A stretch of 37,120 nt of DNA from Hydrogenophilaceae bacterium (GTDB lineage: Bacteria; Pseudomonadota; Gammaproteobacteria; Burkholderiales; Thiobacillaceae): the NCBI GenBank assembly GCA_013389025.1, contig JACAED010000025.1:1-37120 (forward strand), given 5' to 3'. The stretch's first letter is position 1; each line of letters opens with the position of its first letter. Made by a program: the position numbers and the translations under genes. The notes beneath the pieces were generated by a model that was not told the DNA's origin, searched no databases, and saw only the letters and a program-made list of their open reading frames with translations. Below, piece by piece: positions 23,474 to 31,021 of this stretch.

Positions 23474-23887
23474 ATGATAGGCGTATTAATCGTGACCCAT
23501 GGGCCTCTGGGTGAAAATCTCATTGATGCGGTCGCCCATGTTCTTGGTTCCAAACCGAAGTCGATCGAGGCTCTGGATGTTTCATCCAAGGCCGAACCCG
23601 GCGATGTCGAGTCAGCAATCATCAACAGGATGAAAGCTCTTGACAATGGTAAGGGCGTACTCGTCCTCACGGACATTTATGGCGCCACGCCCAGCAATTG
23701 CGTCTGCCGTTCTCTCGAACCGGGACATGCAGCAGGTGTAACAGGAGTCAACCTGCCCATGCTGCTGAAGATCATGACGTACCGAAAGCTGCCCCTTGGC
23801 CAGTTGGCGGCCATGGCCGCGGCAGGCGGACAAGAGGGCATTTCCATCATTTCCCAGGACATGTGCAATGCCACAACAGGACATTGA
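23474..23887 (+). CDS. PTS EIIA, mannose family
   Basis: GVLIVTHGPLGENLIDAVAHVLG; VLVLTDIYGATPSN; VTGVNLPMLLKIM. Confidence 0.93.
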   Translation: MIGVLIVTHGPLGENLIDAVAHVLGSKPKSIEALDVSSKAEPGDVESAIINRMKALDNGKGVLVLTDIYGATPSNCVCRSLEPGHAAGVTGVNLPMLLKIMTYRKLPLGQLAAMAAAGGQEGISIISQDMCNATTGH

Positions 23888-24137
23888 AGTCATCAACAAG
23901 CTGGGATTGCATGCACGCGCGTCAGCCAAACTCACTCAGCTCGCTTCCAGCTTCCAGAGCGAGGTATTCCTTTCACGCAACGGCCGTCGCGTCAATGCAA
24001 AAAGCATCATGGGCGTCATGATGCTCGCTGCGGCGAAGGGCGCGACCGTCACCCTGGAGACCAGCGGGCCTGATGAAGCCCAGGCCATATCAGCCATCTC
24101 TGCCCTGTTTGCCGACAAGTTTGGGGAAGGCGAGTAG
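23868..24137 (+). CDS. ptsH: Phosphocarrier protein HPr
   Basis: INKLGLHARASAKLTQLAS (His15 site) and NAKSIMGVMMLAA (Ser46 site). Confidence 0.95.
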   Translation: MPQQDIEVINKLGLHARASAKLTQLASSFQSEVFLSRNGRRVNAKSIMGVMMLAAAKGATVTLETSGPDEAQAISAISALFADKFGEGE

Positions 24138-24142
24138 TGCCA

Positions 24143-24301
24143 ATGGATATAGAGATGTCCTCAGAAATCGTCGCGCGCAGTATGGCAGCATGGTACCCAA
24201 GGCGCCCAGAATGCGGCGTGTACAAGGACATGCATGATCGTTCCGGATACGTTACTGATTCTGTTCACGTGCGCGCAGCTGATTCATGGAGGCATCGGTG
24301 A
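24143..24301 (+). CDS. Candidate small ORF (52 aa) between ptsH and ptsI
   Basis: ATG 24143 to TGA 24299-24301: MDIEMSSEIVARSMAAWYPRRPECGVYKDMHDRSGYVTDSVHVRAADSWRHR; its stop overlaps a GTG start of ptsI (GTGA). Confidence 0.35.
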   Translation: MDIEMSSEIVARSMAAWYPRRPECGVYKDMHDRSGYVTDSVHVRAADSWRHR

Positions 24302-26025
24302 GTTTCACCCTGCATGGCATCGGCGCCTCCGGCGGTATCGCCATTGGTCGTGCCCATCTTGCTTCGCCTTCGCGGGTAGAGGTTGCGCATTACTCCCTGC
24401 CGAATGACCAGATAGATTCCGAACTCAAGCGGTTTGACGAGGCTGTCGAACAGACCCGCACCGAGCTCCGCAACCTGCGATCACAAATACCCGCGAACGC
24501 ACCTGCCGAATTGCCGGCATTCCTTGACATGCATCTTTTGATACTCGACGACAACATGATCGACGAGGAGCCAAAGCGATTGATTCGTGAACAGCGATGC
24601 AATGCGGAATGGGCACTGACCCAGCAGATGGATGCGCTGGTCGCACGCTTCGAGGAAATCGAGGATCCCTACTTGCGTTCCAGACAGGAAGACGTCGTGC
24701 AGGTTGTACAGCGCGTGATCAAGGTACTGGTAGGACACCCCGGCCAGCTTCCCGCCGGTGTGGAGGGCGAGGAATGCGTTCTGGTCTCGCACGAACTGTC
24801 CCCGGCGGACATGATCCAGTTCAAGAACACGCGTTTTGCCGCTTTCATCACCGATCTTGGAGGCGCCACCTCACACACCGCCATCATGGCAAGAAGTCTG
24901 GGCATTCCTTCGGTCATGGCGCTGCATCAGGCCAGAAGCCTGATCAGGGATCACGAGTGGATCATTGTCGACGGACGTGAAGGTGTTGTCATCGTCGATC
25001 CCGACGAAAAAATTCTCGATGAGTACCGGCTTCGACAAGCCGCCTGGATCAAGGCCACTGAAAAATTAAAGAAACTCAAAACCAGCCGAGCCAAGACACT
25101 GGATGGAACCGATGTCGAGCTGTTTGCCAACATAGAACTGCCACAGGACCTGCCTGCAGTGCTCGAAACCGGCGCTCAGGGCATCGGGTTGTTCCGTAGC
25201 GAGTTCCTGTTCCTGAACCGTGATGACCTGCCCTCCGAGGAAGAGCAGTTCGAGGCATATAAATCGGTGGCTCAGGGCATGAAAGACAAGCCTGTCACCA
25301 TCCGCACACTTGATCTGGGTGCCGACAAACAGGCGCCCTGGGGACATACGGTTGCTGACAACCCGGCATTGGGCTTGCGCGCGATCAGGCTTTGCCTGGC
25401 CGAGCCACGTCTTTTTGAAACCCAGTTGCGAGCGATTCTCAGAGCCTCCGCTTTCGGCAAGGTGCGCATCCTGATACCCATGCTGGGGAATTTTTCCGAA
25501 TTGAAAGCCACCTTGCAGTTGATTGCCTCGACCAAGCAGGGGCTGCGCGAGGAGGGAATCAAATTCGACGAGCGCATTCCGGTCGGTGGCATGATCGAAA
25601 TTCCTGCGGCCGCATTGCTTGCCGAACAGTTCGCACGCCAGCTTGATTTCCTGTCCATCGGCACCAATGACCTGATCCAGTACACCCTGGCCATCGATCG
25701 TGCAGATGACTCCGTTGCCCATTTGTACGACCCGCTTCATCCAGCGGTGTTGGGCCTGATCCAGCACACCATTCGCAGTGGCCAGAAGGCCGGAAGACAC
25801 GTATCGATTTGCGGCGAAATGGCGGGTGACCCCCAACTCACACGGCTTCTGCTGGGTCTCGGCCTGCGGCATTTCTCCATGCAGCCTGCGAACATATTGG
25901 CCGTGAAACATCAGATTCTCGGCAGTCTTGTAGATGAAGTCACTGATCTCTCGTTGCCGCTGATCAGGAATACCGATCCCGAAAAGACTCCCGCCCTGCT
26001 GGCGAAACTGAACGGCAGATCATGA
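24298..26025 (+). CDS. ptsI: PTS Enzyme I (phosphoenolpyruvate-protein phosphotransferase)
   Basis: GTG 24298 preceded by GGAGG at 24288-24292; FTLHGIGASGGIAIGRAHL; GGATSHTAIMARSLGIPSVM (active-site His); IGTNDLIQYTLAIDR. Confidence 0.95.
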   Translation: MSFTLHGIGASGGIAIGRAHLASPSRVEVAHYSLPNDQIDSELKRFDEAVEQTRTELRNLRSQIPANAPAELPAFLDMHLLILDDNMIDEEPKRLIREQRCNAEWALTQQMDALVARFEEIEDPYLRSRQEDVVQVVQRVIKVLVGHPGQLPAGVEGEECVLVSHELSPADMIQFKNTRFAAFITDLGGATSHTAIMARSLGIPSVMALHQARSLIRDHEWIIVDGREGVVIVDPDEKILDEYRLRQAAWIKATEKLKKLKTSRAKTLDGTDVELFANIELPQDLPAVLETGAQGIGLFRSEFLFLNRDDLPSEEEQFEAYKSVAQGMKDKPVTIRTLDLGADKQAPWGHTVADNPALGLRAIRLCLAEPRLFETQLRAILRASAFGKVRILIPMLGNFSELKATLQLIASTKQGLREEGIKFDERIPVGGMIEIPAAALLAEQFARQLDFLSIGTNDLIQYTLAIDRADDSVAHLYDPLHPAVLGLIQHTIRSGQKAGRHVSICGEMAGDPQLTRLLLGLGLRHFSMQPANILAVKHQILGSLVDEVTDLSLPLIRNTDPEKTPALLAKLNGRS

Positions 26026-26682: not shown

Positions 26683-27003
26683 TCAGGCTGCCCGAGCATC
26701 CGCCAGCAGCTCCTGCAGTTCACCCTTCTGATACATCTCGGTCATGATATCCGAGCCGCCGATAAACTGCCCGTTGATGTAAAGCTGAGGAATGGTCGGC
26801 CAACTGGAAAATTCCTTGATGCCCTGGCGGATTTCCGGATCGGCCAGCACGTTGACTGCCAGATAGTTGCCGACGCCGCAGGCCTTGAGAATTCCGGCCG
26901 CGTTGGCCGAGAAACCGCATTGAGGAAACTGTGGTGTGCCTTTCATGTAAAGCACGACCTTGTTACTGGCGACCTGGTCACGAATGGTTTCTTGTGCGTT
27001 CAT
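26683..27003 (-). CDS. grxD: Monothiol glutaredoxin Grx4/GrxD (Fe-S carrier)
   Basis: [59 protein letters not shown]. Confidence 0.97.
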
Positions 27004-27018
27004 GGCATTGCTCCTGCA

Positions 27019-27069
27019 TATCTTGAGTAATTTACTCGGGAATTATAAGGCTTCACTAATGTTCGTCAA
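27019..27069 (-). promoter_or_regulatory. grxD promoter with IscR type-1-like operator
   Basis: Minus strand: TTGACG (27064-27069), 16 nt, TATAAT (27042-27047), then palindrome GAGTAAATTACTC (27025-27037) within ATTCCCGAGTAAATTACTCAAGATA. Confidence 0.55.
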
Positions 27070-28139
27070 GTTGGGGCTTCCCTGCGCGAGATCAATGCCT
27101 TGTGCAACAAATGCCGCGCCAGCATGAGCGGCGGCATGCGCAACCAGTGCGCGCGAACATACGCTGCAAGGCGTGCGGGGCGCATCAGCAGATCGCGACA
27201 GCTGTCATGATCGGGCCCCAATACCCTGTGAAAGACGGCATCCATCAATTTCAGAAGCGGCGGCTCGGCGCTCACAAGATCTGCATCGACCGTGGCAGGA
27301 ACCGGCGTCTTGAGAAAATGCCTTGCGTAACGCAAGGCATAAAACAATGGACGCGCGAGTTCCAGTTCAAGCGCGCGCCTCGGCAACATGTCCCAGAAAT
27401 TTCCATCCCGGCCAAAATACCTCAGCAACAGGTCCAAGTCAGACAAATCCCTCAAACCGTGCGGCAACTCCCCGTCGTGAAACAAGTGACACGCCGCATG
27501 CAGGACCATGTCCACGGGCTGAAGGACAAACAGTCCCGGTTCTCCCTTGACTGGTACCGCTTCACCCCTGAGTTTTACCGGATCGGGATGGTATCGGGCA
27601 GTGCGCGGCAGGATTGCATGATGCATGTCCACCACGCTGCCTCGTTTGAGATGCACCATGGGTGGAATCTCGTGCATCCATTGCCGATAGTAGCGTTCGT
27701 CATAGGCATCACCGGACTGGGCATGCCATCCTGCAAGCATCAATGCAGCTTCGGCCTGATTGATCGACTCGAAGGGCACCATGATGTCCACATCGCTGAA
27801 CATCCTTCCTCTGGAAGCCGGAAGTTCTGCCATCACATAAGCCGCCCCCTTCAGCAGGATGACAGGAATGTTCAACCCGGCAAGTGCCTCCCTGATCTGA
27901 CCGACTTCCCATCGTACGGCAATCTTCTGGCGATCCGACAGCACCTGCTCGGCTTTCAGATGCCAACGCACGGCTTGCGGGATGTCAGCTTCACCTTCCA
28001 ACCCGACCAGTGTTTCAGCCAGCCTGGCCAGCAGGCCGGCTCTCCGCGCCTGCCTGACCAGTAAATCCCAGTCAGCCAGTTTCAGCTGCACCACAACGTC
28101 CGGGTTGCTCAACACCTCGCTGGTCAGTGGAAGATTCAT
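27066..28139 (-). CDS. Nucleotidyltransferase-family protein (NTP_transf_5 / PF14907-like)
   Basis: IPVILLKGAAYVMAELPASRGRMFSDVDIMVPFESINQAEAALMLAGW...VDMHHAIL; ATGA overlap with the kinase gene. Confidence 0.85.
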   Translation of the reverse strand: MNLPLTSEVLSNPDVVVQLKLADWDLLVRQARRAGLLARLAETLVGLEGEADIPQAVRWHLKAEQVLSDRQKIAVRWEVGQIREALAGLNIPVILLKGAAYVMAELPASRGRMFSDVDIMVPFESINQAEAALMLAGWHAQSGDAYDERYYRQWMHEIPPMVHLKRGSVVDMHHAILPRTARYHPDPVKLRGEAVPVKGEPGLFVLQPVDMVLHAACHLFHDGELPHGLRDLSDLDLLLRYFGRDGNFWDMLPRRALELELARPLFYALRYARHFLKTPVPATVDADLVSAEPPLLKLMDAVFHRVLGPDHDSCRDLLMRPARLAAYVRAHWLRMPPLMLARHLLHKALISRREAPT

Positions 28140-29059
28140 GTGGTGGCTTTTTTTTCGTCAGCCAGCGAATTGAATATATGAACGGCATCAGGCAATGCGT
28201 GATACGTGAAATCGTAACACCGACATTGCCGGACCAGTTCGGTCCCTGCCAGGAACCCCCGCTCACCCAATTGGCTGTAGTTGAATGCGTTCTGGGCGAG
28301 ATAAATAAAGGTCTGAGCCTGCGACCTTGGCGTAAGCATTGCTTCGGCATCCTTTTGCCATTTTGGGAAAATGATCCAGCCAGGAGATGCGGGTTCCCGT
28401 TGTCGCCAAACGCTGTCTGCAGGCGGACGCAGATGGGCAACCATCCCCTTGGCGGTATCATGCGCCGCCACGCCTATGCGAGCCTCCCCGGAAAACTCGG
28501 CGATCACGGATATGGACTGGTTCTTGAGACTGACCGGCCGAGCCAGTGGATAGATCAAACCCGTGTCAGGATCGATCAGGGTCAATTCATCAGACAACAG
28601 GCGCCATCCCGACAAAACCAGTCCGGCACACAAGGTGCTTTTCCCCGAACCCGGTGGAGCCGGCAGGATGGCGACAAACCCGTTCCGCTCGACAACCGCA
28701 GCATGAATGATCAGCAAATGATTTGCATGGGTCGAGACACACCAGTTCATACCCCATTCGAGCATGGGGAATGCCTGGTCGACCGGCAAAGGGAGAAATG
28801 GCCTGAATCCATCGAAGGCAAAATTGGCCTGTCGAGAAACCCAGCGCCGGATGCCCTGTGAGCGCCCCACGCTGACATGAAAATCATGGAAATCCGACTC
28901 CCACAATTCAAATTGCCCATAGTGGAAAACCAGACCGTCCGCGACAGAGGGTATGTCGGATTGCACTCGAACCGTAAAGGGTCCTGTCCTGATGCCCAGC
29001 CCCCTGCCTTCCAGACGGGACTCAAGATCTTGCCGATCAACTTCAACCAGCCTCAACAA
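28136..29059 (-). CDS. HprK-related kinase A family protein (TTG start)
   Basis: Walker A LPAPPGSGKSTLCAGLVLSGWRLLSDELTLIDPDTGLIYPLARPVSLKNQSISV; 307 aa; overlaps PqqD-like stop by 17 bp. Confidence 0.87.
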   Translation of the reverse strand: MLRLVEVDRQDLESRLEGRGLGIRTGPFTVRVQSDIPSVADGLVFHYGQFELWESDFHDFHVSVGRSQGIRRWVSRQANFAFDGFRPFLPLPVDQAFPMLEWGMNWCVSTHANHLLIIHAAVVERNGFVAILPAPPGSGKSTLCAGLVLSGWRLLSDELTLIDPDTGLIYPLARPVSLKNQSISVIAEFSGEARIGVAAHDTAKGMVAHLRPPADSVWRQREPASPGWIIFPKWQKDAEAMLTPRSQAQTFIYLAQNAFNYSQLGERGFLAGTELVRQCRCYDFTYHALPDAVHIFNSLADEKKATT

Positions 29060-29285
29060 TCATTCCCCACTCTAGAAACTGTGCATCAACGGCACTGATC
29101 ATTTGAGCCAATTCCTCCTTGTCAATTTCAGGGAAACTCTCGGCCAGTTGTGCATGCGTACGGCCCTCCAAACGGGCATTGGCAACCGGATTGAGGTAAT
29201 GCGTATTACCGGACAGGCAGTCAAATACAACCGCTTCCTCTCCATATCGCTGAACAAGAAAACGCCTGCTTTCAATGTCACTCAT
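29043..29285 (-). CDS. PqqD-like protein (HPr-rel-A type; RiPP recognition element fold expected)
   Basis: MSDIESRRFLVQRYGEEAVVFDCLSGNTHYLNPVANARLEGRTHAQLAESFPEIDKEELAQMISAVDAQFLEWGMIVEAG; 80 aa; adjacent to the HprK-like kinase. Confidence 0.82.
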   Translation of the reverse strand: MSDIESRRFLVQRYGEEAVVFDCLSGNTHYLNPVANARLEGRTHAQLAESFPEIDKEELAQMISAVDAQFLEWGMIVEAG

Positions 29286-29359
29286 GCTACTCAACTCCGG
29301 CTTACCGCTTCGGCTCTTGCAGGGAAGGATAGCAGGGAAACACCTGCATCCAGAAACAG

Positions 29360-29382
29360 AAAACCCGCCTGAGGCGGGTTTT
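29360..29382 (-). terminator. Rho-independent terminator between the Cys-rich gene and the PqqD-like gene
   Basis: Perfect 10-bp stem AAAACCCGCC-TGA-GGCGGGTTTT followed on the minus strand by TTTTCTGTTTC. Confidence 0.85.
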
Positions 29383-29414
29383 GGCTTTCTTGCCTGGTTT
29401 GATATGCGACCCAA

Positions 29415-30032
29415 TCAGCCCTGCATTGATTGGCACCACTTGACGATATCCGCCGCATACCACTTGACTCCGGCCATGGGTGAACAATATCCCTGATTGG
29501 TGAACTCGTTCCATAAAGTCAGAAGTTTCGTCTCCGTACAAACCGAGCTGGGAATATGACCATACTTGATGTTCAACAAGGTAGCCGCACACTCCCTGCC
29601 AACCGGATCGGGCTTGGCCGTCCCGTTGGACCAGAACTGTCCGTTCATGACATCCTTGCAGGTCGGCCCGTTCTGGCCATAGTAACTGGTCTTGGTGCCG
29701 TAATTGCAATACGTGCCACGCTTGAATTTGTCGTGATAACAGACTTTGAGTTCTGGGCATTCCCAATCCGATTTGGTACACCAATGACTGGGCGGTTTGC
29801 CGGAGCAATAAGTCGGGGTACCGTGATGACTGGCAAAACCCAAACTATGAAATCCAGAAGGTGATTTGCAGATTTTCGTAGCCAGGACGGGCTGGCTCGC
29901 AAGTGTAAAAATTGCCGACACCCCCAGACTTGCACCGGTAAATTTCCGGCGGGAGGTGTCTACCATCTCCTGACGGTCAGCACCTGCAATGTCAGGATTA
30001 TCCTGATTTGTTTCCTTGTTTTCCATAATCAT
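29415..30032 (-). CDS. Exported Cys-rich protein with twin-arginine-like signal, candidate substrate of the adjacent cassette
   Basis: MIMENKETNQDNPDIAGADRQEMVDTSRRKFTGASLGVSAIFTLASQPVLA-TKICKSPSG...; 11 Cys after the predicted cleavage site; ATG 30032 or 30026. Confidence 0.75.
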   Translation of the reverse strand: MIMENKETNQDNPDIAGADRQEMVDTSRRKFTGASLGVSAIFTLASQPVLATKICKSPSGFHSLGFASHHGTPTYCSGKPPSHWCTKSDWECPELKVCYHDKFKRGTYCNYGTKTSYYGQNGPTCKDVMNGQFWSNGTAKPDPVGRECAATLLNIKYGHIPSSVCTETKLLTLWNEFTNQGYCSPMAGVKWYAADIVKWCQSMQG

Positions 30033-30169: not shown

Positions 30170-31021
30170 TTATTCCGACATTTTTGCCAAGGTCACACGT
30201 TCAATGTCACTTAGGTCCCTACGGGACTCGACTTCAGCATATCCGGACTTTTTCATCAAGGCCCTGACCTGTGCAGATTGGTCATAACCATGTTCCAGAA
30301 CGAGCAGCCCCTCCGATTTGAGGTGACTTTTTGCCTGCTCCACGATGCTCCTGATATGCGCCAGACCGAACTCCCTCGCAACCAGGGCGTTTCGGGGTTC
30401 GAATCTCACATCTCCCTGACGCAAATGGGGATCCATCGGAGAAATATAAGGCGGGTTGGCAACGATCATGTCGAATTTGCGCCCCGTTAAGGGTTCGAAC
30501 CAATTTCCATGAATAAACTCGACGACAGCATCCAGCTGTTGTGCGTTTTTCCTGGCCATTTCCAATGCCTTCAAGGAATTGTCGACAGCTGCCACTTTTG
30601 CCGTGGGACAGTTCAGTGCCAGAGTGATTGCAATACATCCACTGCCTGTTCCAAGATCGAGCAGATCGAGGGTATTGCGGCCCCGGCATTTTTCAAGCAC
30701 CAGTTCAACCAGCAGTTCGGTTTCCGGGCGCGGAATCAGCACGTCAGGTGTGATGGAGAACACCCTGCCAAAAAACTCCCTGTGCCCGAGAATGTATGCA
30801 ATCGGTTCTCCCGAAAGCCGGCGTTTCAACATGTCCTGAAAACCATTCTCCTCATGCGGTGCAAGGACATCCTGTTCGTGAGCCATCACCCAACTGGGAC
30901 TTTTGTTTGCAAGGGTGGCGAGCAACAGCCTGACTTCCATGCGTGCCGACTGCCTGTCAAGGCCCAGCACATCCATCAGTCGTGTTGCATCATGTTCAAC
31001 GTGCTCGCGAAACGTTTTCAA
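30170..31021 (-). CDS. prmC: Peptide chain release factor N5-glutamine methyltransferase
   Basis: [63 protein letters not shown]. Confidence 0.97.

Follow-up and report, generated by a model that had tools for sequence, protein, structure and literature searches.

The linear polyphosphorylated peptide (LPP) RiPPs of Bacillota, described in 2026, involve a RiPP recognition element (RRE), an HprK-like kinase and an NTP transferase, with no cyclase; LppK phosphorylates Ser3 only, accepting neither Thr nor Tyr, and deletion of lppN had no visible effect (PMC13381572). A related chemistry, the tailoring of the paeninodin/pseudomycoidin lasso peptides (PsmK/PsmN, PadeK/ThcoK), uses an HprK-like kinase acting on a C-terminal Ser and a nucleotidyltransferase-like enzyme which adds hexoses to the phosphate (reviewed in PMC9266682). 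The “HPr-rel-A system” of NCBIfam (TIGR04352, TIGR04353) also belongs here; no described function or substrate for it was found in the literature searched, mostly without subscription papers.

The window analysed in this work (the whole stretch of 37,120 nucleotides) contained a cassette of four minus-strand ORFs located directly between a glutaredoxin-like (grxD-like) gene (26683-27003) and prmC (30170-31021): an exported protein, the candidate substrate (29415-30032, 203 or 205 aa, ATG at 30032 or 30026), a PqqD-like protein (29043-29285), an HprK-related kinase A (28136-29059, TTG start) and an NTP_transf_5 protein (27066-28139). The kinase ORF overlapped the PqqD-like ORF by 17 bp and shared an ATGA overlap with the NTP_transf_5 ORF; an ORF check thus agreed with the first-pass annotation, a reading of the sequence alone, on the four genes, their order and both overlaps. 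The annotation was also right in describing the trio as free of protease and cyclase: among the window ORFs, none in the cassette encoded a protease, a cyclase or a transporter.

The gene set of the LPP RiPPs (discrete RRE, HprK-like kinase and NTP transferase, cyclase-free) was present in the window, in Pseudomonadota instead of Bacillota, but the dedicated archaeal-type signal peptidase and the MsbA-like transporter were both absent between the grxD-like gene and prmC. The HprK-like kinase, the nucleotidyltransferase-like enzyme and the B1 RRE were shared with paeninodin/pseudomycoidin tailoring; unlike in those systems, there was no lasso precursor, and the B2 leader peptidase and the macrolactam (lasso) cyclase C were missing, as the cassette had no further gene.

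The first-pass annotation had named the two enzymes and the HPr-rel-A families, and profile searches upheld the identities of the two enzymes. The kinase matched TIGR04352 (HprK_rel_A) with 396.9 bits (cut-off 200), and the third gene matched PF14907 (NTP_transf_5) with 202 bits (cut-off 31). His119, the P-loop Lys140 and Asp157-Glu158 were intact in the window kinase and invariant in the alignment of 92 kinases, whose active-site stretch aligned with solved HprK structures; the KG, D116/D118 and D171 nucleotidyltransferase residues were likewise intact, and invariant in the alignment of 54 NTP_transf_5 sequences. By sequence, both are unambiguous members of their families. The PqqD-like protein scored 32.3 bits against TIGR04353, just below the cut-off of 35. 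A substrate model for the HPr-rel-A system was found in neither NCBIfam nor Pfam; the substrate families and their signal are added to it here.

ptsH (23868-24137, encoding HPr with the SIMGVM serine motif) and ptsI (24286-26025) were located 2-4 kb from the HprK-related kinase in the window. This proximity and the relationship of the kinase to HprK might indicate a regulatory kinase for HPr or some other PTS protein, with the exported gene as a passenger. Such a role is highly improbable: the HprK model itself (TIGR00679) gave only 11.2 bits on the window kinase (E=0.16), far under its cut-off of 240, and the constant neighbour of the trio was a signal-bearing protein, whereas none of 171 other loci had ptsI near the trio. 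The proximity in the window thus looks coincidental, and HPr was rejected as the substrate.

A PqqD-like ORF was found in 167 of 172 loci. The model of the window protein (pLDDT 92) had a three-stranded sheet with helices in a winged-helix fold, and the best PDB match was TbiB1 (5v1u; probability 1.00, TM 0.67, E 0.005); the top matches were lasso B1 proteins with bound leader, followed by other RRE domains. The protein thus models as a lasso-type RRE, in line with the RRE role assigned to it in the first-pass annotation. Compared with its relatives, it lacked about 10 residues in the region of the first helix, with a predicted fold that was still good.

In evenly drawn genome samples that overlapped slightly, a kinase over the cut-off was present in 32 of 199 for the order, 40 of 369 for the class and 61 of 399 for the phylum. 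The surroundings of 92 kinases, the window included, from beta-, gamma- and alphaproteobacteria were compared as a locus set. A gene with the same signal as the window's exported protein adjoined the trio in 88 of the 92 loci (85 detected with a signal HMM, and L046, L055 and L139 by inspection), an arrangement recurring far beyond chance. The exported gene was usually on the same strand, ending mostly 180-430 bases before the kinase, and was placed after the third enzyme in four loci (L041, L048, L050, L062). No recognisable substrate was found near the kinase in L165, L166, L169 and L177, whose kinases may act on a substrate encoded elsewhere. Two loci (L209, 2541-4040; L225, 3242-4545) each had two signal-bearing substrates in tandem.

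When the signal HMM was trained on half of the loci and searched in the other half, all matches better than E=0.02 were on the trio strand and adjacent to it, nearly one per locus. In a set of 80 named loci (Thiobacillus, Gallionella, Sulfuricella, Nitrosomonas, Massilia, Methylomonas, Thioalkalivibrio and others; partially overlapping with the 92-locus set), the exported gene was found in 75, and three of the five misses were less than 800 bases from a contig end. In the 199 whole genomes of the order, all 27 signal matches at E<=3.4e-5 were at trio loci, and the next matches were weak and mostly partial; the cross-validated half/half search is the cleaner of the two, because the profile used in the genome scan had been trained in part on signals from the order itself. 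A generic Tat signal was rejected as the cause of these matches, as the profile did not pick up ordinary Tat signals genome-wide. The full substrate profile, signal included, matched in 28 of 32 kinase-positive vs. 0 of 167 kinase-negative genomes (Fisher 3e-30). The first-pass annotation had staked its proposal on finding the exported family together with the trio in other genomes, and this expectation was borne out by the locus and genome counts, as well as by the kinase phylogeny described below.

The window's exported protein had no family match in Pfam or NCBIfam. In the proteins encoded beside the kinases, RR and a hydrophobic stretch were accompanied by a conserved end similar to PVIMTLASRPVLG, and the twin Arg, the hydrophobic stretch and the A-x-A/G end are features of a Tat substrate. 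In the window, this Tat-like signal, common to all substrates, was in the SRRKFTGASLGVSAIFTLASQPVLATK region (29877-29957, RR codons 29946-29951). RR was kept in 114 of 116 and 116 of 116 type-1 rows and in 40 of 40 type-2 rows, and the signal was conserved more than most of the body. Unlike the leaders read by known lasso/LPP RREs, it had no [Y/W]xxP motif: the 48-residue leader of the window protein contained neither Tyr nor Trp, and YxxPxV was absent.

The substrate bodies were of two types, neither of them found in Pfam or NCBIfam, and the signal was the only part common to both. In type 1, the type of the window, C-x-x-S-G-x-x-S-G-N-x-S directly followed the signal and preceded a domain with SPGYWK and AALLNA. 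Ser61 (29844-29846, counted from the ATG at 30026), the prime candidate for phosphorylation, was conserved in 115 of 116 rows, the exception being a low-complexity protein (L052); the second candidate, Ser57 of the C-x-x-(x)-S-G motif (29856-29858), was conserved in 113 of 116. Type-2 bodies were short and otherwise mutually dissimilar, with a Ser 2-15 residues before the C terminus in 40 of 40 rows, in a motif like SCWxS[FL]. This position was Ser and never Thr, which fits LppK. Conserved N termini followed by variable C termini are also found in LPP precursors, and the strict preference of the LPP kinase for one Ser is consistent with the near-invariant Ser57/Ser61; the location near the C terminus in type 2 parallels the paeninodin/pseudomycoidin peptides. 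The substrates differed from those of the LPP RiPPs in having a Tat-like signal without YxxP as the leader, in being mostly full-size exported proteins and in forming two families with the Ser at opposite ends.

The exported protein had been described as Cys-rich in the first-pass annotation. This holds for the window protein (11 Cys in the mature part) but not for its relatives (type-1 median 4; 10 or more in 9 of 116 rows), and Cys-richness was rejected as a common feature; the Tat-like signal and a near-invariant Ser are what the substrates share. The annotation had further proposed a full-length exported protein rather than a small RiPP, which fits most products but not every one. In L139 (G255:C33), a 74-aa ORF of the size of a classic RiPP precursor ended 426 bases before the kinase start, with the same signal followed by a product of about 12 residues and the end ...SACISCNASLI. 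Together with the trio itself (an RRE, a kinase and an NTP transferase being lasso/LPP tailoring enzymes), this precursor might suggest that the trio converts some short, unannotated precursor into a small RiPP of the conventional kind, the exported protein serving as an accessory or immunity-like partner. We consider this quite unlikely, given the lack of protease, cyclase and transporter in the cassette; no recurrent precursor candidate of another kind was seen, and the L139 precursor, having the same signal and Ser motif, seems to be the substrate in miniature.

The type-1 body domain (29418-29810 in the window; CxG.SPGYWK...AALLNA in relatives) was for the most part confidently modelled, beginning at about residue 71, and more weakly around residues 101-120, and a structure search of the model gave no fold match in the PDB. 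By sequence it had no family either, a steryl-sulfatase match at E=0.04 being judged chance. The domain was also found, without the signal, inside ORFs of 1,046-2,888 aa in genomes with or without the trio, and the type-1 body alone was consequently rejected as a marker of the system. The match in these giant ORFs started past the signal and the serine motif, which points to a link of the motif with the modification and of the domain with surface function. In L263, L264, L265 and L266, the giant ORFs with a G.SPGYWKNH...AALLN domain resembled repetitive surface or secreted proteins.

In the tree of the 92 kinases, type 1 and type 2 were separated by a single branch (support 100/99), and substrate type required 1 change vs. 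25.5 with shuffled labels. Membership of the window's order required 10 changes, the split between types crossing taxonomy, and the tree of the third enzyme required 2 changes for substrate type. Loci unlabelled beforehand fell in the clade predicted by their substrate (L046 in type 1; L055 and L139 in type 2). On these trees, enzyme and substrate evolve together. The NTP_transf_5 gene was absent beside eight kinases, all on the type-2 side, so the RRE, the kinase and the substrate are the core, to which the third enzyme is not essential; L141, L148, L150, L151, L152 and L167 had an RRE, a kinase and a type-2 substrate with no NTP_transf_5 gene nearby.

The RRE-like protein is called a “peptide chaperone” in NCBIfam, and this name, like the conservation of the signal above most of the body, would also suit a trio working as a quality-control step or export chaperone through transient phosphorylation, the signal being read by a dedicated export step and the modification not lasting. 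This is an unlikely explanation, as the invariant Ser belongs to the mature protein and is near its N terminus in type 1 but near its C terminus in type 2, a difference that the kinase phylogeny follows.

Of the 32 kinase-positive genomes of the order, 31 had an exosortase (one of them by a weak match), vs. 45 of 167 other genomes (p=2e-14). Kinase and exosortase were 12-57 kb apart in five of seven essentially single-contig genomes, and far apart in G015 and G107. This association, and it is an association only, points to exopolysaccharide biology. A polysaccharide-locus location and a signal-peptidase-like leader peptidase are further points of likeness with the LPP RiPPs. TatC was present in 31 of 31 other kinase-positive genomes; a search of the genome that the window comes from, 75% complete, did not find it.

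The reading we consider probable is that the four genes are a module for modification and export, in which a single enzyme set serves a single dedicated substrate; its binding, phosphorylation, second modification, order of steps and role are what we infer from the above. In the cytoplasm, the PqqD-like RRE would bind the conserved signal-peptide segment (RR...PVIMTLASRPVLG), suggested by this being the only part common to both types, and would present the protein to the kinase; conservation of the signal could also serve something other than RRE binding. By analogy with PadeK, PsmK/PsmN and LppK, the kinase should phosphorylate one invariant Ser in the RRE-presented precursor. In type 1 this would be Ser61 (or Ser57), close to the N terminus of the mature protein, and in type 2 the serine of the C-terminal SCWxS[FL] motif. 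By homology with PsmN-type tailoring, the NTP_transf_5 enzyme should then act on the Ser phosphate, the likeliest addition being a hexose or a nucleotide, in line with the proposal for PsmN. Tat transports folded proteins, and export by this route would allow a cytoplasmic ATP-dependent modification to come first. The modified protein would be exported by Tat, an ordinary signal peptidase would remove the signal, which had doubled as leader, and the product would probably work at the cell surface or in the exopolysaccharide of exosortase-type species. Since the trio lies beside a same-signal protein with an essentially unchanging Ser in 88 of 92 loci, it probably phosphorylates and decorates this protein before export. 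A more specific version is put forward tentatively: in a widespread protein-modification system, the RRE may read the Tat signal as a leader. Each cell would thereby have one dedicated exported protein that receives, on a single Ser, first a phosphate and then a sugar or a nucleotide, all before the folded protein is exported, and the adduct may tie the protein to exosortase-associated exopolysaccharide.

The trio and its cyclase-free use were known before; what is new here is the substrate with its dedicated signal, and the application of the chemistry at the scale of proteins, and no earlier account of the pairing of trio and exported protein was found in the literature searched, mostly without subscription papers. 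Between about one in ten and one in six of the sampled Pseudomonadota genomes have the HPr-rel-A kinase, and naming a substrate, a recognition signal and one candidate Ser turns an anonymous cassette into one that can be tested in E. coli. The system parallels the 2026 LPP family, likewise in polysaccharide loci. If the proposal is true, RRE-guided, RiPP-style chemistry would be applied to whole Tat-exported proteins, and the boundary between a RiPP leader and an export signal would be blurred.
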